Positions 9,440 to 20,610 of a stretch of 64,000 bases of DNA are shown in pieces; the first letter of the stretch is position 1; each line of letters starts with the position of its first letter. This stretch comes from Nitrospira defluvii. Its GTDB lineage: Bacteria; Nitrospirota; Nitrospiria; Nitrospirales; Nitrospiraceae. Both the position numbers and the translations under genes were made by a program. The notes below the pieces were generated by a model. The model was not told the origin of the DNA, searched no databases, and saw only the letters and a list, made by a program, of their open reading frames with translations. The stretch covers positions 1 to 64,000 of the forward strand of contig WYAX01000020.1 of the NCBI GenBank assembly GCA_011525625.1, read 5' to 3'.

Positions 9440-10240
9440 ATGTCGCTGGCAAACTTGGTCACACAGTACATCGTCCAATACGGTTTTCGAATCATGGGCG
9501 CGATCCTCGTTCTCGTCGCCGCCCTGTTCGTGGCCAAGTCGGTCGGCCGGCTCTTCGAGCACTGGTTGAACGAGCAGGACTTGGAGCCGCCCCTTCGCCT
9601 CCTGCTTCTCCGCCTCGTGAAGGCGCTGGTCGTGATCCTCGGGCTGCTCATTGCGCTGGATCAACTGGGCCTGCAAATCGCTCCGCTGGTCGCCGGACTC
9701 GGCGTCGCCGGACTCGGTGTCGGTCTGGCACTACAGGGAGTGCTCAGTAACATCGTGGCCGGGCTCTCGATCATCTTCACGAAACCGTACCGGGTGGGAG
9801 AACATGTCTCGCTGTTGGGCGTGCATGGCGATGTCGCCAAAATCGACATCTTCACCACCACGCTCGTGCACCCGGATCAGTCCCGCATCGTCATTCCGAA
9901 TCGGAAGGTCGTCGGGGAGATCCTGCACAACTTCGGAACCATCCGACAATTGGACCTGTCCATCGGAGTTTCGTACCGGACCGACATCGACTCGACGCTA
10001 CGAATGCTCCGCGACCTCGTCACCCGCCATCCGAAGGTGCTCCAGACACCTGCGCCCATCATCGGCATTGCGGCCTTCGCCGACTCCTCGATTACCCTGT
10101 CCATTCGGCCCTGGGTCGAGGTGGCGACGGTCGGCTCTGCTCACATCGAGCTGAACCAGGCAATCCTCCAACGATTACAGGCTGATGGCGTCGAGATCCC
10201 GTTCCCGCAGCGTGAGGTGCGTCTGCTCAATCCGTCTTAG
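9440..10240 (+). CDS. MscS-family mechanosensitive channel
   Basis: A 266-residue channel of the MscS family, which opens under membrane tension to release solutes during hypo-osmotic shock. There are three N-terminal membrane segments; TM3 has the pore-lining Gly/Ala pattern AGLGVAGLGVGLALQGVLSN (residues about 76-95), followed by the beta domain (VGEHVSLLGVHGDVAKIDIFTTTL split at IDIF) and the C-terminal alpha/beta domain. Length is close to E. coli MscS. GGAGGGAG lies just before the ATG. It is 18 bp downstream of the AsmA-like gene and so probably co-transcribed, and stands just before the GTPase/OmpA cluster. Confidence 0.93.
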   Translation: MSLANLVTQYIVQYGFRIMGAILVLVAALFVAKSVGRLFEHWLNEQDLEPPLRLLLLRLVKALVVILGLLIALDQLGLQIAPLVAGLGVAGLGVGLALQGVLSNIVAGLSIIFTKPYRVGEHVSLLGVHGDVAKIDIFTTTLVHPDQSRIVIPNRKVVGEILHNFGTIRQLDLSIGVSYRTDIDSTLRMLRDLVTRHPKVLQTPAPIIGIAAFADSSITLSIRPWVEVATVGSAHIELNQAILQRLQADGVEIPFPQREVRLLNPS

Positions 10241-10375
10241 AGCCTGCACAATGCCGCCGCCATTTGTACGTATTCTTTCTCTGCATAGACGCGGGCGTCA
10301 CTTGTTGCCCCTGATCGCAATATGCTACCCTGGCGCTCTTTCGATGCGGGGCGACAGCGACCAGGGAGACGACCC

Positions 10376-10990
10376 ATGAGCAGGCATACGAACCTCGATC
10401 GCACACGACGTTCAGAACACGCACCTGACACGCTTACCGCGGCGGAAGCGGACGCCTCGTTGACCGAAGACCATGCCGCCGGCAACAACCTCGACAAGAT
10501 CCGCGACATTCTCTTCGGCGCACAGGTACGGGATCACGAACGCCGGTTTACGAAACTTGAGGCCCAACTGCTCGCGGAGGCGGCCCAGTTGCGCACCGAC
10601 CTGAAAGACCGATTTGCCGCACTGGAACAATACATACGACACGAAGTCGAATCCGTGACGGGGCAGCTGAAGGCTGAGGAACAACAGCGCACCGATGCCG
10701 TGAGCCACCTGACCACGGAACTGCAGACACTGGCCGGCGTGCTCCAACAGACGGCTGCTCAGCTGCGAACGCAGAGTGAACAGGCCCACCGTGAGCTGCA
10801 GGATCAACTGCACCATCAAGCGACCACGCTCGCCGGTGACTTCACGCAACGACACACCGCACTCTCAGCCACGCTGGATGAGGCGGTTCGGCAATTGTCC
10901 CACCAAAAGACCGACCGGGTCTCCTTGGCGACGTTGTTCCAAGAACTCTCGCAGAGGCTCTCGCATGATCAGCCTCCCTCACGGACATAA
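10376..10990 (+). CDS. Cytoplasmic coiled-coil protein of the GTPase cluster
   Basis: A 204-residue protein without signal peptide, almost wholly helical. A short unstructured N-terminus is followed by a conserved-looking block DKIRDILFGAQVRDHERRF and then heptads running to about residue 185 (LEAQLLAEAAQLRTDLKDRF and similar). It ends KTDRVSLATLFQELSQRLS. I know of similar unnamed proteins beside OmpA/GTPase pairs in other bacteria but no assigned function. ATG 10376 has GGGAG 8 bp upstream. It is the first gene of the cluster with the OmpA-roadblock protein (116 bp downstream) and the small GTPase, so a scaffold or adaptor role is a guess. Confidence 0.75.
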   Translation: MSRHTNLDRTRRSEHAPDTLTAAEADASLTEDHAAGNNLDKIRDILFGAQVRDHERRFTKLEAQLLAEAAQLRTDLKDRFAALEQYIRHEVESVTGQLKAEEQQRTDAVSHLTTELQTLAGVLQQTAAQLRTQSEQAHRELQDQLHHQATTLAGDFTQRHTALSATLDEAVRQLSHQKTDRVSLATLFQELSQRLSHDQPPSRT

Positions 10991-11106
10991 CCCCCCACCT
11001 GTGGCTCAGCGGCTGCGGCGCGTGCTCAGCACGGCACGCAGCGCCTCTCCTCGCCCCATGTTGCTCGATCGAGAGTTTTTCCTGCACGCCGAACAGAGGA
11101 GACGCA

Positions 11107-12837
11107 ATGGCGCAGGCACCTAACGCCATTGAGCCGACCGGCGACGGCGACTACGCCGAGTTGCGCAGCCTCCTTCTGGCTCCAGAGCAATCGCGTCTGG
11201 AAGAACTCCAGGAGCAGGTCGAGCACATCGAGCTCAATGCCCAGAATATGAGTCGACTGCTTCCCGATGCGATCGCCCTGCGCGGCGAGCACGACCAGCG
11301 CTTGACCCGGGTGTTGACCCCGCACGTATCGGAAGCCCTGGGCACAGCCGTGCGCAAACAGCCGCAGACGATCGTCGACGCGATCGCACCGATCATGATG
11401 CCGGCTATCCGCCTGTCCATCACCAATGCCCTGCGAAGCATGGTGCAATCGCTCAATCAAACGATCGAGCATAGCCTCTCGTTCCGCAGCATGCAGTGGA
11501 GACTGGAAGCGCTACGCACCGGCCAACCGTTCGCAGAAATTGTGCTCCTGCACACCTTGTGTTATCGAGTCGAACAGGTCTTCCTCATTCACTCACAGAC
11601 CGGGTTGCTCCTGGCCCACGCGGCAGGCGACTCGGTCGCCGTCCAAGACGAGACCCTGGTCTCGGGCATGTTGTCGGCCATTCGGGCGTTTGTGCAGGAT
11701 TCGTTCGGCGCCGCACCGGACCAGGTCTTGAATACACTGCGGGTCGGCGACCTCACCGTGTGGATCGAACAGGGACCGGTCGCGATTCTCGCCGCGGTCA
11801 TTCGCGGCACACCACCCGAACACTTCCATATTCACCTTCAGGATACACTCACCCGGATCCATGCCGAACAGGCCGACGCTTTGGCCCGGTTCGAGGGAGA
11901 CGCCTCGACCTTGGCCGGCGTGAGACCGCTCCTCGAAGACTGCCTGCAGGCGCAGTTTGAGCCACGTCGGCGCGCCGTATCCCCGATGACATGGGCGTTG
12001 TTGGCCACACTCCTTCTGGGTGCGGCCTGGTGGGGAGCGTCGGTGTATCAGGAGCGCCACCGCTGGCAGGCTTTTCTGGCACGTCTCGGCGCAGAACCGG
12101 GACTCGTGCTCACGGCCGTTGAGACGGATGGAGGGCATTATCGACTCGCCGGGCTTCGCGACCCGTTGGCTGCGGACCCTGCGGCCCTGCTGCAAGAAAG
12201 CGGTCTGGATCCGGGGCACATCACAGCACAATGGAGCTCCTACTACGCGCTGGACGCGACATTCCTCCTCAAACGTGCCCGGCTCATCCTCTCGCCCCCA
12301 ACCACCGTTCAACTGGCCATGGAGGGGACGCGCCTGATCGCGGCGGGAACCGCGCCGGCACAATGGATCCGGGAAAGCCGAAGGCTCGCGCAGCTCCTAC
12401 CCGGCCTTGAGCACTACGACGACCGGGGTCTCACGCGACAGTCGCTCAACGTTGTAACCCAGGAGCTGGCACAGGCCTCGATCCTGTTCGAACAGGGGCG
12501 AGCGGACATTCGTTCATCGGAGCAACGTCACAGTCTGTCCCGCATTGCGACTCTTCTTGGTCAGATTGACGAGTTGGCTCGCCTATCCGGCACCACGCTG
12601 ACGATACGGATCAACGGCCAAACCGACATCGTCGGTGGCCTGGCGCAGAACCGGCGCTTGAGCGAGATCCGCGCCCAGTCGGCCCTTGATGCCATTCATC
12701 CCGCAACATTTCCCTCGATCAGGTTCGAAGCCCACGGAGTTACCCTGCCGCCTGAACCCCAAAGAGCTAGGGCCACAGCCGTACTGCCTGAAGATCGACG
12801 CGTGTCGTTTCAGGTGACTGTGCCCCAGGCTCCGTGA
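11107..12837 (+). CDS. Roadblock-like / transmembrane / OmpA-domain protein
   Basis: A 576-residue protein with an unusual domain order. Residues about 20-125 are helical. Residues about 143-255 read like a roadblock/LC7 domain (VEQVFLIHSQTGLLLAHAAG, then MLSAIRAFVQDSF), a fold that regulates small GTPases. One membrane helix follows (295-314, TWALLATLLLGAAWWGASVY). Beyond it residues about 318-365 resemble a BON domain and residues about 465-576 an OmpA domain with GQTDIVGGLAQNRRLSEIRA. There is no signal peptide, so the helix should leave the N-terminus in the cytoplasm and put OmpA in the periplasm, where it can bind peptidoglycan. The Ras-like GTPase gene begins 12 bp downstream. The roadblock call is from pattern and context and is the least certain part. 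Confidence 0.75.
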   Translation: MAQAPNAIEPTGDGDYAELRSLLLAPEQSRLEELQEQVEHIELNAQNMSRLLPDAIALRGEHDQRLTRVLTPHVSEALGTAVRKQPQTIVDAIAPIMMPAIRLSITNALRSMVQSLNQTIEHSLSFRSMQWRLEALRTGQPFAEIVLLHTLCYRVEQVFLIHSQTGLLLAHAAGDSVAVQDETLVSGMLSAIRAFVQDSFGAAPDQVLNTLRVGDLTVWIEQGPVAILAAVIRGTPPEHFHIHLQDTLTRIHAEQADALARFEGDASTLAGVRPLLEDCLQAQFEPRRRAVSPMTWALLATLLLGAAWWGASVYQERHRWQAFLARLGAEPGLVLTAVETDGGHYRLAGLRDPLAADPAALLQESGLDPGHITAQWSSYYALDATFLLKRARLILSPPTTVQLAMEGTRLIAAGTAPAQWIRESRRLAQLLPGLEHYDDRGLTRQSLNVVTQELAQASILFEQGRADIRSSEQRHSLSRIATLLGQIDELARLSGTTLTIRINGQTDIVGGLAQNRRLSEIRAQSALDAIHPATFPSIRFEAHGVTLPPEPQRARATAVLPEDRRVSFQVTVPQAP

Positions 12838-12849
12838 GAACCTCCTGCC

Positions 12850-13386
12850 ATGATCGAGAAGAAAATTTGCATGTTGGGGGCGTTTGCCGTCGGAAAAACC
12901 AGTCTGGTCCGGCGATTTGTCACCAGTTGTTTTTCCGAACAATATCAAACCACCATTGGGGTGACGGTCGACAAGAAATCCCTGACAGTGGACGGAACGG
13001 ACCTGACGCTTGTGGTTTGGGACCTGTATGGAGAAGACGAATTCCAAAAGCTTCGCCGCTCCTACCTGCGCGGCTCAGCGGGGTACCTCCTCGTCTTGGA
13101 CGGACTGCGTCGGGCCTCCTTGGACATCGCCTTGCGCATCCAAGAGAGTGTCACCGACGAACTCGGTCCGATACCCTTCGTGGCCCTGGTCAACAAACAC
13201 GACCGACGGGCAGAGTGGGAGCTCACTGATCACGACCTCGCAGAGCTGGCCCAACGCGGCTGGCCGGTCTTGATGAGCAGTGCCAAGACAGGGCAGGGGG
13301 TTGAAGACGCATTCACCACGCTGTCCCGCGCTCTCACGCAGGCGCCTCAACCATCATCACGAGCCGACCACCCCGATGGCGCCTAA
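12850..13386 (+). CDS. Ras-like small GTPase (Rab/MglA-type, bacterial)
   Basis: A 178-residue stand-alone GTPase of the Ras superfamily. G1 is GAFAVGKTS (residues 10-18), G2 Thr lies in QYQTTIGV, G3 is WDLYGEDEF (57-65), G4 is NKHD (115-118) and G5 is SSAK (143-146). The position of the Ras catalytic Gln61 holds Glu. There is no lipidation motif, and the C-terminal tail is short and polar. Its neighbour upstream supplies a roadblock-like domain, as MglB does for MglA; the next gene, a sigma-54 activator, starts inside its last 11 bp. I infer that GTP state is read by one of these two neighbours. Confidence 0.9.
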   Translation: MIEKKICMLGAFAVGKTSLVRRFVTSCFSEQYQTTIGVTVDKKSLTVDGTDLTLVVWDLYGEDEFQKLRRSYLRGSAGYLLVLDGLRRASLDIALRIQESVTDELGPIPFVALVNKHDRRAEWELTDHDLAELAQRGWPVLMSSAKTGQGVEDAFTTLSRALTQAPQPSSRADHPDGA

Positions 13387-15172
13387 CTCACACCCCTCCG
13401 TACCGGACACGTTCTACCGCGCACTGTTGGCACGATTCCTCATTGCGGTGCTCGAACACGTTGGCGAGACGCGCGTCCGTCTCATCGGGGAGCCGCCCCC
13501 CTGGCTGTTGCGTCTGTACCCGGAGGCCGAGCACCAGGCAGACTTTTCCATCGATACTCGCACCCCGGTGCTGCACAACTTTCTGCATGACGCAGCTGCA
13601 GCATGGGACGCGCAGAACAACCCCATCGCCCGGTCAGGGTTCTGGACCGATCACACCATGTTCGACGAACCCCGACACTTCGACGCCCTGGCGTTTCGAG
13701 AAGGCGATCAGCGCCTGCTCCTGGTCCAGCACCATACAGAAACGTATGATCAGCAGGCCGCCTTGCTGCAAGAGGCGCGTGAGCGCGCGCTTCGGCAACA
13801 TGAGCAGAACCGCGGGCACCAACGAACACACCAGGTCCTCACCACCAAGCTGGCAGATAGTGAACGGTCGCGAGATGATCTCGCGGCGATTCTGCAGCAA
13901 CTCGGACTCGCGACGCTGCTGGTCGACGGGAACGGGCACGTCCGGTTTCTCAGCGACTCAGCCGTCCGACTGCTGGAGGTGCCCCCGTCCTCCGCATCCA
14001 GGGACATGCATTGGGAAACGCTGTTGCCGTCCTCAAAACCGGACCGCCTGGCCCTGCAGACATTATTGCGCCAACCCGTTTCGCCACGGGAACGGGCACG
14101 ATGTCACATCGAAACGCCGACGGGACGACGCCTCTGGCTCGAAATTGAACTCCACGACGACCCGCGAGATTCGCGTCAGAGGATTGCGTTCCTGCACGAC
14201 ATGACCGATGTCTATCATCTTCGACGCCTGCTGGAGTTGAAGGCGCATTTCCATGATCTGATCGGTAAAAGCCGTGGCATGACTCAGGTCTATGAACAAA
14301 TCCACGACCTGGCCCGCGTCGATTCAACCGTCTTAATCGAAGGGGAAACCGGGACGGGGAAGGAACTGGTCGCGCGCGCCTTACATCAGGCCAGTGCCCG
14401 GCGTACCGGCCCGTTTATCGCCGCCAACTGCGCAGGCCTGACCGATTCATTGCTCGGCAGCCAGCTCTTCGGCCATAAAAAAGGGGCCTTTACCGGCGCC
14501 ATCGACGATCAGCCGGGACTCTTCGAAGCCGCGCAGAACGGCGTGCTCTTTCTGGATGAGATCGGCGATATCCCCCACACCGTTCAAACCCACCTGCTGC
14601 GTGTGCTGCAGGAAAAGGAGGTGACGCGACTCGGCGAGACCAAGCCGCGAAAAATCAACGTACGGGTTGTGACGGCGACGCATCACAATTTGAGCCAGGA
14701 CGTCGCCAAGGGAGTGTTTCGTGCCGACCTGCTCTATCGGATTCGAGTCGCCCGCCTCCAGCTTCCGCCGCTACGGGAGCGGAAGGAAGATATCCCGCTC
14801 TTGGTCACCTCATTCCTTACTGAGGGACGAGCCAGTATGGGGAAGACGATCCATCGGGCAAGCCCGGCGGCCATGGCGGCGTTCATGGACTATCACTGGC
14901 CCGGCAACGTACGGGAACTGAAGAGCACGATCGAGTGCGCCATGATTCACTGCAAAGGCGATACATTGGATGTCTCCGACCTGCCGTCCGAGATTCACCA
15001 GACGAATCCCGTTCCTCCCGCCGGACCGACACTCCCCACTGATGAACGCAGCCGGTTCGTGTTCGCCCTTGGACAAGCCCGGGGCAATCGCACCAAGGCT
15101 GCGCGGCTTCTGGGCATGAGCCGTGCCACCTTCTATCGCCGATTGACCGAGCTCGACCTCCCGCCTAGCTAG
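13376..15172 (+). CDS. PAS-containing sigma-54-dependent transcription activator
   Basis: A 598-residue enhancer-binding protein. Residues 1-120 are an unrecognised N-terminal domain, about 121-170 a coiled coil, about 171-280 a PAS-like domain, and about 290-530 the AAA+ domain with Walker A GETGTGKE (323-330), the sigma-54 contact loop GAFTGA (370-375) and Walker B VLFLDEIGD (390-398). A Fis-type helix-turn-helix ends the protein (NRTKAARLLGMSRATFYRRL). No receiver domain is present, so control is not by a phosphotransfer partner. ATG 13376 makes MAPNSHPSVPD the start and overlaps the GTPase gene by 11 bp; this coupling suggests the GTPase or PAS ligand controls it. Candidate binding sites lie just downstream at 15203-15252. 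Confidence 0.93.
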   Translation: MAPNSHPSVPDTFYRALLARFLIAVLEHVGETRVRLIGEPPPWLLRLYPEAEHQADFSIDTRTPVLHNFLHDAAAAWDAQNNPIARSGFWTDHTMFDEPRHFDALAFREGDQRLLLVQHHTETYDQQAALLQEARERALRQHEQNRGHQRTHQVLTTKLADSERSRDDLAAILQQLGLATLLVDGNGHVRFLSDSAVRLLEVPPSSASRDMHWETLLPSSKPDRLALQTLLRQPVSPRERARCHIETPTGRRLWLEIELHDDPRDSRQRIAFLHDMTDVYHLRRLLELKAHFHDLIGKSRGMTQVYEQIHDLARVDSTVLIEGETGTGKELVARALHQASARRTGPFIAANCAGLTDSLLGSQLFGHKKGAFTGAIDDQPGLFEAAQNGVLFLDEIGDIPHTVQTHLLRVLQEKEVTRLGETKPRKINVRVVTATHHNLSQDVAKGVFRADLLYRIRVARLQLPPLRERKEDIPLLVTSFLTEGRASMGKTIHRASPAAMAAFMDYHWPGNVRELKSTIECAMIHCKGDTLDVSDLPSEIHQTNPVPPAGPTLPTDERSRFVFALGQARGNRTKAARLLGMSRATFYRRLTELDLPPS

Positions 15173-15202
15173 CTCTCTCCTCCAACACAAACGTTCCGGC
15201 CC

Positions 15203-15252
15203 TGTCTCATAGCGTCTCACCCGAGACAGCACGAGACGATCTCCTGCGTCTC
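15203..15252. promoter_or_regulatory. Phased GTCTC/GAGAC half sites, candidate activator-binding site
   Basis: Hexamers TGTCTC (15203-15208), CGTCTC (15213-15218), GAGACA (15223-15228) and GAGACG (15233-15238) follow one another with exactly 4 bp between them, a 10-bp period. First and third, and second and fourth, are exact inverted partners with the same 14-bp spacer. A fifth CGTCTC lies at 15247-15252. The array is 31 bp past the activator stop and about 100 bp before a sigma-54-like promoter, the usual range for an upstream activator sequence. It is not followed by a T-run, so a terminator is less likely. Confidence 0.6.
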
Positions 15253-15336
15253 GCCGTTGCCCGACCACTCGACAGACCACTCACCTGTTGCACGACAAAC
15301 GCGGCATGGCCCTCGTGACCGCCACCGTCAATGCCG

Positions 15337-15353
15337 CAGGCACGGAGCTTGAT
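15337..15353 (+). promoter_or_regulatory. Sigma-54-like -24/-12 promoter for the LuxR-type gene
   Basis: AGGCACGGAGCTTGAT fits the consensus TGGCACG-N4-TTGC at GGCACG and TTG, with the -24 GG at 15339-15340; the -12 dinucleotide is GA instead of GC. The expected start is near 15364, about 70 nt before the ATG at 15436. The gene for a sigma-54 activator lies directly upstream. Confidence 0.5.
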
Positions 15354-15435
15354 AGACATCGCGGGAGAAACCACTGCGTGCTATCCCGTGTCATCGTCAG
15401 GCGACAGCGACCAGAAAGGAGCCAGTAACCTACCC

Positions 15436-15753
15436 ATGGACACCGTCGTCCCGTTTTCACACCCGCGGCCGGATCAACCGACTCCGCGCGAACGAGAGAT
15501 ACTCAACTTTATCTGGGCAGGGTTGACGAGCCAGGAAATTGCAGCCCGCCTGCGCGTCGCGCCGAAGACCGTGGAATCCCACCGCGCAAACCTGCTGAGA
15601 AAATTTCGCGCGGCCAACGCCGCGCAATTGCTTCGCTTCGCGCTCCTGGAGGGCCTGCTCGACGTACCGTCGCCCAACAGTGAAACGAACACGTCGCCGA
15701 AAACCCGCACACCCCGCAGCCCCACGGTGCGAAAATTGACGCCCCTCAAATGA
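15436..15753 (+). CDS. Short LuxR-type helix-turn-helix regulator
   Basis: A 105-residue protein that is little more than a GerE/LuxR DNA-binding domain: PTPREREILNFIWAGLTSQE (residues 15-34), IAARLRVAPKTVESHRANLL, KFRAANAAQLLRFAL. No receiver or ligand domain precedes it. A polar Thr/Pro/Lys-rich tail follows. The nearest good Shine-Dalgarno (AAAGGAG) is about 14 bp from the ATG, further than usual. The 5' leader shares 15 bp with that of the coiled-coil gene at 10376. It probably relays the sigma-54 activator's signal to a second set of genes. Confidence 0.8.
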   Translation: MDTVVPFSHPRPDQPTPREREILNFIWAGLTSQEIAARLRVAPKTVESHRANLLRKFRAANAAQLLRFALLEGLLDVPSPNSETNTSPKTRTPRSPTVRKLTPLK

Positions 15754-16015
15754 CCAGGCCCAATGTCACGAACACCCAGCCAGGTCGGTGCAATGCCCTA
15801 TCATTCAACGACACGACGCACCAGCGCGACACGCACTACCCATGCCTTCACTCTTTCCTCGTGCGTGGCAACGTCGCCGGGGCGCGCGGATGACACAACG
15901 GGGATCTGCGGGACACACTGTTGATCTCCTCCACGGAATCCAATATACAACACCAGAATTTCGACTCATCCGGCAACCGACACACCGTTGCCATTCGCAA
16001 GCCTAGGAGGATGGA

Positions 16016-17128
16016 ATGATGCGACGACTCGGAAGTTTCCTCTTCGCGCTGCTCCTCGTGGCGCTCACAGCCACGGGCGCGAGCGCTGAGTCCCAGGCCT
16101 CGCCGGATGCCCCACCGGCCTCGGCCACGCTCGACGCGGTCACGCTCAAAGACGGCACCGTCATTTATGGACGGGTCCTCGGTATGATCGCCGACGAGCT
16201 GCACATCAAAACCGCATTCGGCCCGACCGCCGGAAACGACATCGTCAAAATCATGTGGCCCAATGTGGCGAAGCTGGTCGTGAATCGTCCTATTCCCTTC
16301 AGCCTCAAGGAAGGCACGACGATCGTCGGCACGGCGCAGCCCGGCGAACCAGGCACGCTCAACGTACAGGCGGCGCCGATGGGCACGCCGATGGCCATTC
16401 CTCTGGATGCAGTCGTCGGCATGAACCAACCCGCCGTCATCTACACCGGCGCCCTTCAAGCCGGCTTTTCGCAAACCACTGGCAACAGCCACCTGCGAAA
16501 CGCCAGCCTGCTCGGAGAGTTGTCGGCCCGCAGCGAATCGCTACGCCTGACCATCCTGGGGCGATACATCTACGGAGACAATAGCGGCAATCTCATCGTG
16601 CGCAACAGCCGCGGGACCATCAAGCTTGACTTCTTTCTGACGAAGCGGTTGTATTGGTTCTCGTCAGCCTACTTCGAGCAGGACACCTTTCAGGACCTGA
16701 AACTGCGCACGGCGCTCGCAACCGGTCCCGGCTATCAATTCCTCGACCGTGGTGACCTGACAGGGTTCTTCAAAGACATGACGCTCTGGGCGGAAGCCGG
16801 TGCGGCGTACTTCAACGAGGATTTCAAAGTCGCCGACGACAAATCCAGCGCTCGTGGCCGATGGGCCGTCAAATGGAATTGGCCGCTCTGGGGTGGCGAT
16901 CAAGTCAGCCTGTACCACTTTCAGGAAGGCTTCCAATCACTCGCCAATTCCAAAGATCTTTACCTGACGGCCGATACCGGATTGCGGTTCAAAGTGTGGG
17001 GCGGCCTGGTCAGCGGATTCCAATGGACCATGCGGTACAACAAAAATCCGCCGCCGGGCGTGTCGGATACCGATAACCTCTACCTGATCACGCTGGGATA
17101 CAGCTTCGACACCAGTCGAAAACAATAG
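16016..17128 (+). CDS. DUF481-family outer-membrane protein
   Basis: A 370-residue exported protein. The signal peptide (residues 1-24) ends ATGASA. Residues about 38-140 form an N-terminal domain starting [16 protein letters not shown], often found before DUF481. Residues about 140-370 are a DUF481 beta-barrel-like region with alternating strands ([33 protein letters not shown]) and a C-terminal aromatic strand [13 protein letters not shown]. coli YdiY of this family is salt-induced. AGGAGG lies close upstream. MscL follows after 50 bp, so the two may share a transcript, which fits an osmotic role. Confidence 0.85.
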
Positions 17129-17133
17129 CATCC

Positions 17134-17160
17134 GAGACGGATTCGGGATGCAGTCGTCTC
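17134..17160. repeat. Inverted GAGACG / CGTCTC pair before mscL
   Basis: GAGACG (17134-17139) and CGTCTC (17155-17160) face each other across 15 bp between the DUF481 stop and the mscL ribosome site. The hexamers are the same as in the array at 15203-15252. It may be a hairpin in the message or another binding site. Confidence 0.4.
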
Positions 17161-17178
17161 ACACAAGGAGGTTACGCG

Positions 17179-17604
17179 ATGGGCATGATGAGTGAGTTCA
17201 AAGAATTTGCCGTGAAGGGGAACGTCCTCGACATGGCGGTGGGGGTCATCATCGGAGGAGCATTTGGCAAGATTGTGTCATCCGTCGTCAGTGACATTCT
17301 CATGCCTCCCATCGGCCTCCTCATGGGGCGCATGGACTTCTCCAGCCTCTTTATTCCGCTGAGCGAAGAGGCCAAAGGCAAATCCCTCGCTGCGGCCAAA
17401 GCCGCCGGCGCCGCCACGATCAACTATGGTGTGTTTCTGCAAACCCTGCTGGATTTTACGATCCTGGCGTTTGTCATTTTCATGGTGGTCAAACAAATGA
17501 ACCGTTTTAAGAAGGCCGCGCCTCCCGGACCACCACCGGCACCGCCCAAAGAGGAAGTCTTGCTGACGGAGATCCGTGATCTACTGAAAAATCAACGGCA
17601 CTAA
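17179..17604 (+). CDS. mscL: Large-conductance mechanosensitive channel
   Basis: MscL is the high-threshold safety valve that opens near membrane-lysis tension. The 141-residue length fits. The N-terminal helix and TM1 are canonical ([20 protein letters not shown], then [20 protein letters not shown]), the periplasmic loop includes [12 protein letters not shown]2 is [20 protein letters not shown], and the C-terminal helix is [20 protein letters not shown] is 7 bp upstream of the ATG. A second mechanosensitive channel, MscS, is encoded 7 kb upstream. Confidence 0.97.
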
Positions 17605-17671
17605 CCGTGGACCGTTGGACGGTGTTGCTCAGACATGTCCGGCGGCCTGACCGTTTTGTAAGGAGGAATGC

Positions 17672-18895
17672 ATGACACACGTTCGCGTAGTTCCCGTGCT
17701 GCTGAGCACCCTGCTGCTCGCGGCCTGCTCGTCCGCACCGTCTCCCAATGATTCGGCCAGTCGGGCTCTGAACGAGATGAAAGCGGTCGCCCGGCCCATT
17801 CCGCCCAAACCGGATCCGCGCGATCTCAAGATCGCCGATCTCGAACGGCAGAAGGCCGACCTCCAGCGAGAAAAGGCCGATCTCGAAGCAGAGTTGGCGA
17901 GACTCCGTTCCTCCGCCGCCGCCGACCTGGATCAGTCAAAAGCGCGCATTTCCGAACTGGAGAACCAGATCAACCAGCGCGACAGGGAATTAGCCGAGCT
18001 CCGGAACGCCGCCGGCGACAAAGATCGGCTGGCCAGCCAATTGTCCGACGCAGACCGGCAATTGTCCGCCAAAGATCAAGAACTGGCGTCTTTGAGGCAG
18101 AACGCCGGAGACAAGGACCGGCTCGCCGGAGAGCTGGTCGCATTGCACGCGTTGCTCGCCACGAAGGACCAGGAGCTCGCCGGTGTGAAAAGCCATGCCG
18201 GAGATCGAGACCGTCTGTCATCCGAGTTGGCACAGGCAAAACAACGGATCGCCGAGTTGGAACGCCAACTCAACGGCAAGGATCAAGAATTGTCAGCACT
18301 AAAAGGTGCCGCCGGCGACCGAGATCGCTTACTGGCGGATCTCGCCGCAGCCAAACAGCGGGCCACCGATCTCGAAAGCGAAATCACCCGCCGGGACCAC
18401 GAGATGGCCGGCCTTCGCGGTGCGCTTGATCAACAAAAGACCAGCCTCGCCGAGGCCAAAAACGATTTATCCAAACTCCTCCAGGCAGAGGTGGCCAAGG
18501 GCAATGTGACCATGAAACAATTGGGGGATCAGCTCACCCTCGGCCTGGCCACGACCTTGTTGTTCGATTCTGGAGAGTCCACTCTCAAGCCAGGCGGAGC
18601 AGACGTGTTGAGTCGTATCGGCAGCGTGCTCAAAAACTATCCCGACCGCTCGATCCATGTGGCCGGCCACACCGACAACGTGCCGATCAAGGGACGATTG
18701 GCGAAGCGATTCCCGACCAACACGGAACTCTCTCAAGCGCGCGCGGACAGTGCACGCCAGGCCCTGACGGAGGGTGGCATGTCAGCCGACAAGATCGACG
18801 CCAAAGGTCATGCCGACAGCCGACCGATCGCCAGCAATTCAACGGCCGAGGGGCGACAAAAAAATCGCCGCGTCGAAATCGTCGTCAGTCAATAA
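17672..18895 (+). CDS. OmpA-domain lipoprotein with coiled-coil repeats
   Basis: A 407-residue lipoprotein (lipobox LLLAAC, Cys near residue 16). A long coiled coil (about 45-270) is built of imperfect repeats carrying AGDKDRL or AGDRDRL followed by KDQE; the repeat length is about 31 residues in the first copies and about 38 in the later ones. The C-terminal OmpA domain (about 285-407) has LLFDSGESTLKPGG, VAGHTDNVPI and the peptidoglycan-binding signature GRQKNRRVEI. It should tether outer membrane to peptidoglycan with a rod-like spacer. TAAGGAGG precedes the ATG. A paralog follows at 19129. Confidence 0.9.
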   Translation: MTHVRVVPVLLSTLLLAACSSAPSPNDSASRALNEMKAVARPIPPKPDPRDLKIADLERQKADLQREKADLEAELARLRSSAAADLDQSKARISELENQINQRDRELAELRNAAGDKDRLASQLSDADRQLSAKDQELASLRQNAGDKDRLAGELVALHALLATKDQELAGVKSHAGDRDRLSSELAQAKQRIAELERQLNGKDQELSALKGAAGDRDRLLADLAAAKQRATDLESEITRRDHEMAGLRGALDQQKTSLAEAKNDLSKLLQAEVAKGNVTMKQLGDQLTLGLATTLLFDSGESTLKPGGADVLSRIGSVLKNYPDRSIHVAGHTDNVPIKGRLAKRFPTNTELSQARADSARQALTEGGMSADKIDAKGHADSRPIASNSTAEGRQKNRRVEIVVSQ

Positions 18896-19128
18896 CGATC
18901 AGGCACAGCGTCAGGACTACGTTGCATCTGCCCTGGGAACACGTTAGAGTACCGACGGGTTCTTGGGGCATGCACCTTCATCAGGTACCCAGTGCTCACA
19001 CCGGCTGATCCATATCTGTCAGCTCGGTCCCAGTCGTCTTCTTCTGCTGCCCGCATCGGATTCCCTCGGACGACTGTTGACCTCTTACCACCAGCACGTT
19101 CAGCCCATCGGCACGGAGAGGGAATCGT

Positions 19129-20610
19129 ATGAAACGAGCTGTCTGGGCACTCCTTGTTCTCAGTTCCCACATGACAGGGTGCGAATCCGTTCCCCAGCCC
19201 CAACCGCCACCTCCTGTGGCCTCATCGGGCGAGGCAAAACTCGTCGCGCTTCAGCAGGAACGTGAGCAGCTCCTCACGACGCTCGGTGAATTCCATGACA
19301 AGATTCGGGATCTTGAGAGCAGACTGGGCGATCGACAAACTCAACCCGCCAGTGCGTCGTATGACCAGTTGCTCGGCGCGAAAGAGGCGGAACTCGCTGA
19401 CTTGCGGCGGTTGGCTCCGGAACGCGATCGGTTGAGCAGTCAACTCACAATTACGACCAACGAACTTCTGCAAGCCCGCCAGCGTATCAGCGGACTCGAA
19501 CAAGAACTGGCTGCGCGCGACCAGAGCCTGGCCGCACTACAGAATCGCACGGTGGCGCTCGCTGATCTTGACGTGGCCAAACGCCGGATTGTCGAGTTGG
19601 AAGCGCAGGTGGTCCATCAGGAGCATGATCTTCGCACCGTTCGCGCCGGCAATGCGGAGCGAGACAGTCTCGCCGCTCAGCTGCAAACCGCCACTGCGAC
19701 CATCGATTCACTGAAGGCCCGTATCACTGCCCTGGACCAAAAGCTGAAAGAGCGCGAGCAGGCTTATGAAACCGTCCGCTCACGCCTGATGGAGCGAGAT
19801 AAGCTTGTGCCCCAATACAACGCAATGATTGCGGAAATCTATCAAGCGAGGCACCGGATCACTGCTCTTGAGCAACGATTGAACGACAAGTCCCGGGATC
19901 TTCCCCCGCGACAGAGAGGGACTTCGACACCTACACCCCAGCAAGGCTCAGAAACGGCAGCAACCAGAAATACGGCCTCCACGGGACCGGATTCAGGACG
20001 GACTGGGGCTTCCGCCCAGACCAACCCGAGCCGAACTGATGCGCGCACTTCAAGCATTGCAGTCCTCAGGGAAGCGCTGCGGAAGGCACTACCGGCGGAG
20101 GCCGAGCAGAAAGTTTTCACGGTCAGACAGGATGGAACCCGTTTGGTGATCGCACTGGCCGGTAATTGGCTCTTCACATCTGCCGATGCGGCGCTGACCG
20201 CTGATGGCATCATCCTGCTGAAGCGAATCGGCACGGTGCTGGGCCCTTTATCAGACACCTTCGTGCAAGTCGCTGGCCATACGGACAACCTCGCCCTCAG
20301 TAAAGCCCTTCAAAAAATCTATGCCGATAACAAAGCCCTTTCTTGGGCCCGCGCTGATAATGCCCGTCAAGCCATGGTCAGCGGAGGGATCCCTCCTGAA
20401 CGGATCAAGGCAATCGGCCTTGCGGACTCCCGACCGGTCGCCTCAAATGCCACCGAACAGGGTCGTCAGAAAAACCGCCGGCTTGAATTAATTATTGCGT
20501 CGCGCCCTACCGTCGCATCGGCAGCTGGGGTGTTGGATGCTCCGCCCCGCGTTATGGCGCTCGAGGCCACCCACCGGCAGCGAGTCGCCCAGGGGGCGAT
20601 TTACAACTGA
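19129..20610 (+). CDS. OmpA-domain lipoprotein, paralog of the preceding gene
   Basis: A 493-residue lipoprotein (lipobox-like SHMTGC, Cys 21). A Pro-rich spacer leads into a coiled coil (about 40-265) with motifs such as RRLAPERDRLSSQL and RITALEQRLNDK that parallel its neighbour. A Thr/Ser/Pro-rich linker (about 265-310) and an OmpA domain follow (VAGHTDNLALSKAL, GRQKNRRLELI). The tail runs about 35 residues beyond the OmpA domain. The stop overlaps the end of the convergent substrate-binding gene by 10 bp. The 233-bp spacer from the first paralog suggests its own promoter, which I could not place. Confidence 0.88.
   Translation: MKRAVWALLVLSSHMTGCESVPQPQPPPPVASSGEAKLVALQQEREQLLTTLGEFHDKIRDLESRLGDRQTQPASASYDQLLGAKEAELADLRRLAPERDRLSSQLTITTNELLQARQRISGLEQELAARDQSLAALQNRTVALADLDVAKRRIVELEAQVVHQEHDLRTVRAGNAERDSLAAQLQTATATIDSLKARITALDQKLKEREQAYETVRSRLMERDKLVPQYNAMIAEIYQARHRITALEQRLNDKSRDLPPRQRGTSTPTPQQGSETAATRNTASTGPDSGRTGASAQTNPSRTDARTSSIAVLREALRKALPAEAEQKVFTVRQDGTRLVIALAGNWLFTSADAALTADGIILLKRIGTVLGPLSDTFVQVAGHTDNLALSKALQKIYADNKALSWARADNARQAMVSGGIPPERIKAIGLADSRPVASNATEQGRQKNRRLELIIASRPTVASAAGVLDAPPRVMALEATHRQRVAQGAIYN

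Follow-up and report, generated by a model that had tools for sequence, protein, structure and literature searches.

A candidate TGTCTCA enhancer and sigma-54 promoter downstream of the NtrC-family activator gene in a Ras-like GTPase operon of Nitrospira

Relation to NtrC and Rup GTPase systems

Enhancers of sigma-54 activators (bEBPs) usually lie 80–150 bp upstream, and the NtrC site of the glnA type is TGCACC-(A/T)4-TGGTGCA (PMC4987338). The Nitrospira defluvii locus described here, found in a 64-kb window (the whole stretch of DNA that was analysed), resembles NtrC/glnA in combining an activator that carries a GAFTGA AAA+ domain and a Fis-type HTH with TGnnnCA dyad half-sites ~100 bp upstream of a -24/-12 promoter (PMC4987338), and the NtrC half-site TGCACC fits the TGnnnCA frame common to TGTCTCA. 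Unlike NtrC/glnA, the Nitrospira locus has the half-site TGTCTCA, present as five half-sites at 10/10/10/14 bp, a -12 element reading TTGW, and an activator without a receiver domain and with, apparently, a single dedicated target. The sequence holds the features that define an NtrC-family bEBP system, namely the GAFTGA AAA+ domain with Fis-type HTH, the -24/-12 promoter, half-sites ~80–150 bp upstream, and sigma-54 itself, encoded by one rpoN in the genome (RpoN box ARRTVAKYR). The interpretation of TGTCTCA as a new half-site, within a bEBP enhancer and sigma-54 promoter of known type, is well supported at the sequence level.

The activator gene itself sits in a less familiar setting. Group 1 Rup systems are sets comprising a coiled-coil protein, an OmpA-domain protein, a GTPase and an output gene (Wuichet and Sogaard-Andersen 2014, PMC4316618). 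Typical outputs are a cyclase/phosphodiesterase or histidine kinase, the output protein has a conserved N-terminal region with an invariant Gln, and as of 2014 the Rup-like GTPase family had no experimentally characterised member (PMC4316618). The Nitrospira operon appears to resemble these systems: its four genes encode a coiled-coil protein, a protein ending in an OmpA domain, a Ras-like GTPase and, as output, the activator, and the GTPase G3 motif lacks the catalytic Gln (DLYG[ED][ED] in 19 loci). Clear homology links the operon to a Mesorhizobium plasmid set (GTPase 50%, OmpA protein ~41% and coiled-coil protein 30% identity), whose output is a nucleotide cyclase. In Nitrospira that place is taken by a sigma-54 activator for which a candidate target promoter is identified, a difference that also separates it from the outputs typical of Group 1 Rup systems. 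Similarity between the N-termini of the activator and the Mesorhizobium output was not significant, while Gln 131 of the activator (counted from 13379), which follows the PAS-like domain, is invariant in 38 activators.

The activator, whose start ATG at 13376 overlaps the GTPase stop codon, consists of an N-terminal PAS-like region, a PAS domain, an AAA+ domain with GAFTGA, an AAA lid and a Fis-type HTH with the sequence SRATFYRR; the PAS-like fold of the N-terminus is a tentative assignment, as it comes from a structure model of pLDDT 74 with a best Foldseek E of 0.004. For the cytoplasmic domain of the OmpA protein, considered as a Roadblock-like fold, the structure model was poor (pLDDT 43). 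The family-wide gene order is mscS, coiled-coil protein, OmpA protein, GTPase, activator, array and promoter, regulator, DUF481, mscL and ompA genes, with variation in the identity of the regulator and with mscS not found in some loci. The mscS, mscL, OmpA-type and DUF481 genes that flank the GTPase-activator set (9440–20610) suggest an envelope or osmotic theme.

The array and promoter downstream of the activator gene

Half-sites of the form YGTCTC/GAGACR occupy the region between the activator gene and a LuxR-type regulator gene (Table 1). We read them as the upstream activating sequence, or enhancer, for the adjoining NtrC-family activator, feeding a sigma-54 promoter of the LuxR-type gene, and put the probability of this reading, as judged from sequence, at roughly nine in ten.

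Table 1. Coordinates of the proposed circuit and its neighbours, in window positions; information contents are means per base
Feature	Position	Strand	Evidence and remarks
Coiled-coil protein, first gene of GTPase set	10322–10990	+	synteny; similarity to Mesorhizobium equivalent (see text)
Protein ending in an OmpA-like domain, with a cytoplasmic domain and a probable membrane helix	11107–12837	+	weak OmpA matches; synteny
Ras-like small GTPase	12850–13386	+	Pfam Ras 1.6e-28; G3 motif DLYGED, no catalytic Gln
Sigma-54 activator (bEBP)	13376–15172	+	Pfam Sigma54_activat 6.9e-67, HTH_8 2.7e-9
Half-site A, TGTCTC	15203–15208	+	1.86 bits, 24 genomes
Half-site B, CGTCTC	15213–15218	+	1.33 bits, 24 genomes; first base C/T
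Half-site C, GAGACA	15223–15228	-	1.78 bits, 24 genomes; inward partner B; inward dyad in other genera too
Half-site D, GAGACG	15233–15238	-	1.70 bits, 24 genomes
Half-site E, CGTCTC	15247–15252	+	1.83 bits, 24 genomes; outward partner D
Sigma-54 (-24/-12) promoter, GGCACGGAGCTTGA	15339–15352	+	no variation in GGCA or TTG across 24 Nitrospira genomes; predicted start ~15364
Start region and early leader, GGAGAAACCACTGCGTGCTATCCCGTG	15363–15390	+	imperfect CCAC..GTGG palindrome; many columns 1.5–2 bits
LuxR-type HTH regulator, 105 aa, proposed target gene	15436–15753	+	Pfam GerE 3e-17
Separate sigma-70-like promoter of DUF481 gene, TTGATC-N17-TATACA	15921–15949	+	kept in 23 aligned Nitrospira genomes

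Four of the hexamers (A to D) and the promoter string GGCACGGAGCTTG at 15339 had been placed exactly to the base by a first-pass annotation, from which half-site E, a member of the same array, was missing. The 10-bp steps from A to D, followed by 13–14 bp between D and E, recur in most of the 24 aligned Nitrospira genomes, the D-to-E distance being 12 bp in most other genera. The earlier pairing of A with C and of B with D across 14-bp spacers describes spacers that are indeed present in this sequence, but the pairing is not conserved: the outer bases of B (C/T) and D (A/G) vary independently, with no covariation, and other genera instead carry an inward dyad, TGTCTCA-N0-3-TGAGACA (2–5 bp between hexamers), together with an outward pair.

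The textbook -12 box is TTGC. Across this lineage its C is replaced by A or T (TTGA/TTGT), so that the -24/-12 promoter proposed by the first-pass annotation stands as GGCAY-N5-NTG[AT], present in all 38 orthologous regions, and its TTGC does not. A weaker -12 box, with GTG, ATG or CTG for TTG, occurs in two genomes of one genus (g10) and in a further genome (L079). The leader region just downstream of the promoter is present in most Nitrospira genomes and absent in two (L030 and L033); its palindrome may be a leader element or an operator, through which the LuxR product could conceivably regulate its own gene.

Conservation and the recognition helix

All 38 assessable orthologous activators, from four genera, are followed by the array and promoter, including those where the next gene differs. 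The 38 regions contain 162 TGTCTCA half-sites against 24 expected, the maximum of 200 shuffles being 38, and the half-sites lie at -65 to -138 bp relative to the -24 GG. In the three further genera, where the orthologous activators share 49–57% identity, 3–5 TGTCTCA/TGAGACA half-sites and a GGCAY-N5-NTG[AT] promoter are found downstream. The gene that follows may be a LuxR solo, a response regulator or an unknown protein, and array and promoter persist throughout; since the next gene differs between genera, the array travels with the activator rather than with the target. Conversely, no half-site cluster was found in eight genomes of the family that have DUF481 without an adjoining activator or GTPase. 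Three of the loci with no activator by DUF481 (L159, L160 and L163) carry GGCATC-type sigma-54-like strings (GGCATCGAGCTTGC, GGCATCGACTTTGC and GGCATCAGCATTGC) ~170–220 bp before DUF481.

A natural internal deletion in one genome (G016; L057, L153, L158) has removed the OmpA, GTPase and activator genes. Its array keeps 16 of 17 invariant columns and its promoter is altered at two of seven otherwise invariant bases, which would fit the loss of its activator; as DUF481 is also broken there, carrying stops, and only a single genome is concerned, the promoter decay may be general decay. Outside the family, a related GTPase-activator pair in G201 is followed directly by DUF481, with no TGTCTCA array, so not every such pair has the circuit.

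The same genomes encode a second, paralogous activator with 61–65% identity from the AAA+ domain through the HTH and a receiver domain in place of the PAS-like N-terminus. Downstream of it (L107–L125, L034–L036) lies its own half-site cluster, TGTGYCA, with a sigma-54 promoter, GGCAYGATCYTTGA. The paralog regions (n = 22) hold 54 TGTGYCA and 5 TGTCTCA, whereas the regions of the SRATFYRR activator (n = 38) hold 68 TGTCTCA and 3 TGTGYCA. The consistent difference in the HTH is SRATFYRR in the activator against SRRTFYRR in the paralog, which also differs at C-terminal residues other than this Ala to Arg exchange; the Ala is residue 584 of the activator when the Met at 13376 is taken as 1. Because half-sites and recognition helix change together, the motif is tied to the activator's Fis-type domain, and we consider this co-change the strongest sequence evidence that this domain reads the array. 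Along with the absence of the cluster where the activator is absent, it favours the suggestion of the first-pass annotation that the motif is a candidate binding site for the activator encoded at 13376.

If another protein were to bind the array, whether the LuxR-type product autoregulating its own gene or a general regulator, the array would merely happen to lie between the two genes. Additional binders are compatible with the data, and the conserved leader palindrome could be an operator of the LuxR product; as the explanation of the array, however, such a protein is improbable, given that the array persists in front of downstream genes other than this LuxR, is absent from the eight genomes with no activator near DUF481 and has half-sites that follow the activator's recognition helix. 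Less probable still is a role of the inverted repeats at the RNA level, as a hairpin or terminator ending the activator transcript. B and C, and likewise D and E, can pair in folded RNA, but the folding is unremarkable (z = -1.3), a search for a terminator-like site found none at the array, several genomes lose one partner or alter order or spacing, and the half-sites stay at a fixed spacing from the sigma-54 motif. On the folding, the terminator search and the changed order and spacing across genomes, we rejected this candidate. Chance repetition of hexamers beside a functionless promoter-like string, for which the chance-level frequency of simple pairs and lone promoter-like strings in the window might speak, is already refuted, as far as sequence allows, by conservation in 38 of 38 regions over four genera while the flanking intergenic DNA diverged.

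The corresponding counts locate where the signal lies. Simple GTCTC..GAGAC pairs occur at chance level both in the window (3 observed, 3.3 expected) and genome-wide (7, against 5 in the control), so that significance rests on the cluster and its conservation. The array is the sole place in the window with at least three half-sites within 60 bp. The pattern YGTCTC-N4-YGTCTC-N3-5-GASACA has one match in the 4.6-Mb genome and none in the reversed control. Similarly, lone strings resembling GGCAC-N5-TTG(C) are no more frequent than expected in the window (67 two-mismatch matches, 67 expected), yet the GGCAC-N5-TTG promoter string is kept in every ortholog. When the intergenic region between the activator and LuxR-type genes is aligned across 24 Nitrospira genomes, columns of the array and promoter average 1.72 bits and the remaining intergenic columns 0.62 (Mann-Whitney p = 1e-18, a value that is only indicative because the aligned sequences and species are related).

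Proposed target, mechanism and GTPase input

A genome scan for GTCTC-N14-GAGAC pairs near -24/-12 promoters, as the first-pass annotation had proposed, revealed no wider regulon: the five other places with this pair all overlap open frames and none has a sigma-54 promoter. Three further places with YGTCTCA-N0-4-TGAGACR likewise have no suitable promoter. Across 29 genomes, TGTCTCA-N70-100-GGCAY-N5-TTG matched the array locus in 10; of the 13 remaining matches, 12 run across open frames and not one has an array; no recurrent second target was found in these genomes. We therefore rejected a genome-wide regulon. Neither a further array nor a dyad beside a suitable sigma-54 promoter emerged from these scans, so the activator seems to act on a single promoter. 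An outward GAGACG..CGTCTC pair also lies between DUF481 and mscL (17134–17160), with no sigma-54-like string beside it.

Since a sigma-70-like promoter, conserved although it scores below the threshold of a consensus scan, is available to DUF481 itself, the LuxR-type gene is the most likely target of the sigma-54 promoter, and inclusion of DUF481-mscL in the sigma-54 unit is less likely. In the mechanism we propose for the activator-bound array, dimers of the Fis-type HTH would bind the TGTCTCA half-sites and gather an oligomer, whose AAA+ ring would contact sigma-54 RNA polymerase waiting at GGCACGGAGCTTGA, ~90–135 bp downstream, through looping or close contact. ATP hydrolysis would then open the promoter, so that regulation would be positive and the LuxR-type gene at 15436 would be transcribed from the predicted start. 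The enhancer appears dedicated to this promoter only.

The more unusual part is the hypothetical link of enhancer and promoter to the Rup-like GTPase set. From gene order we infer that the GTPase controls the activator, whose upstream signal would probably come from its operon partners, the GTPase and the OmpA protein. Taken together, a module built around a Ras-like GTPase of Rup Group 1-like type, with an OmpA protein that may use its OmpA domain as an anchor in the cell wall, may be wired directly to transcription. It would control a sigma-54 activator dedicated to one promoter, acting there from a TGTCTCA enhancer, and one helix residue (Ala to Arg) would separate TGTCTCA from TGTGYCA recognition in two activators of the same cell. 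We advance this combined picture tentatively, at slightly less than even odds.

For Nitrospira, a sigma-54 activator gains a concrete candidate DNA motif and target, from sequence alone and across 38 genomes, and the two activators offer a natural pair for testing the recognition code of the Fis-type domain. The Rup-like GTPase set, in turn, would gain a readable output promoter, and reporter assays of the set's input signal would become possible.
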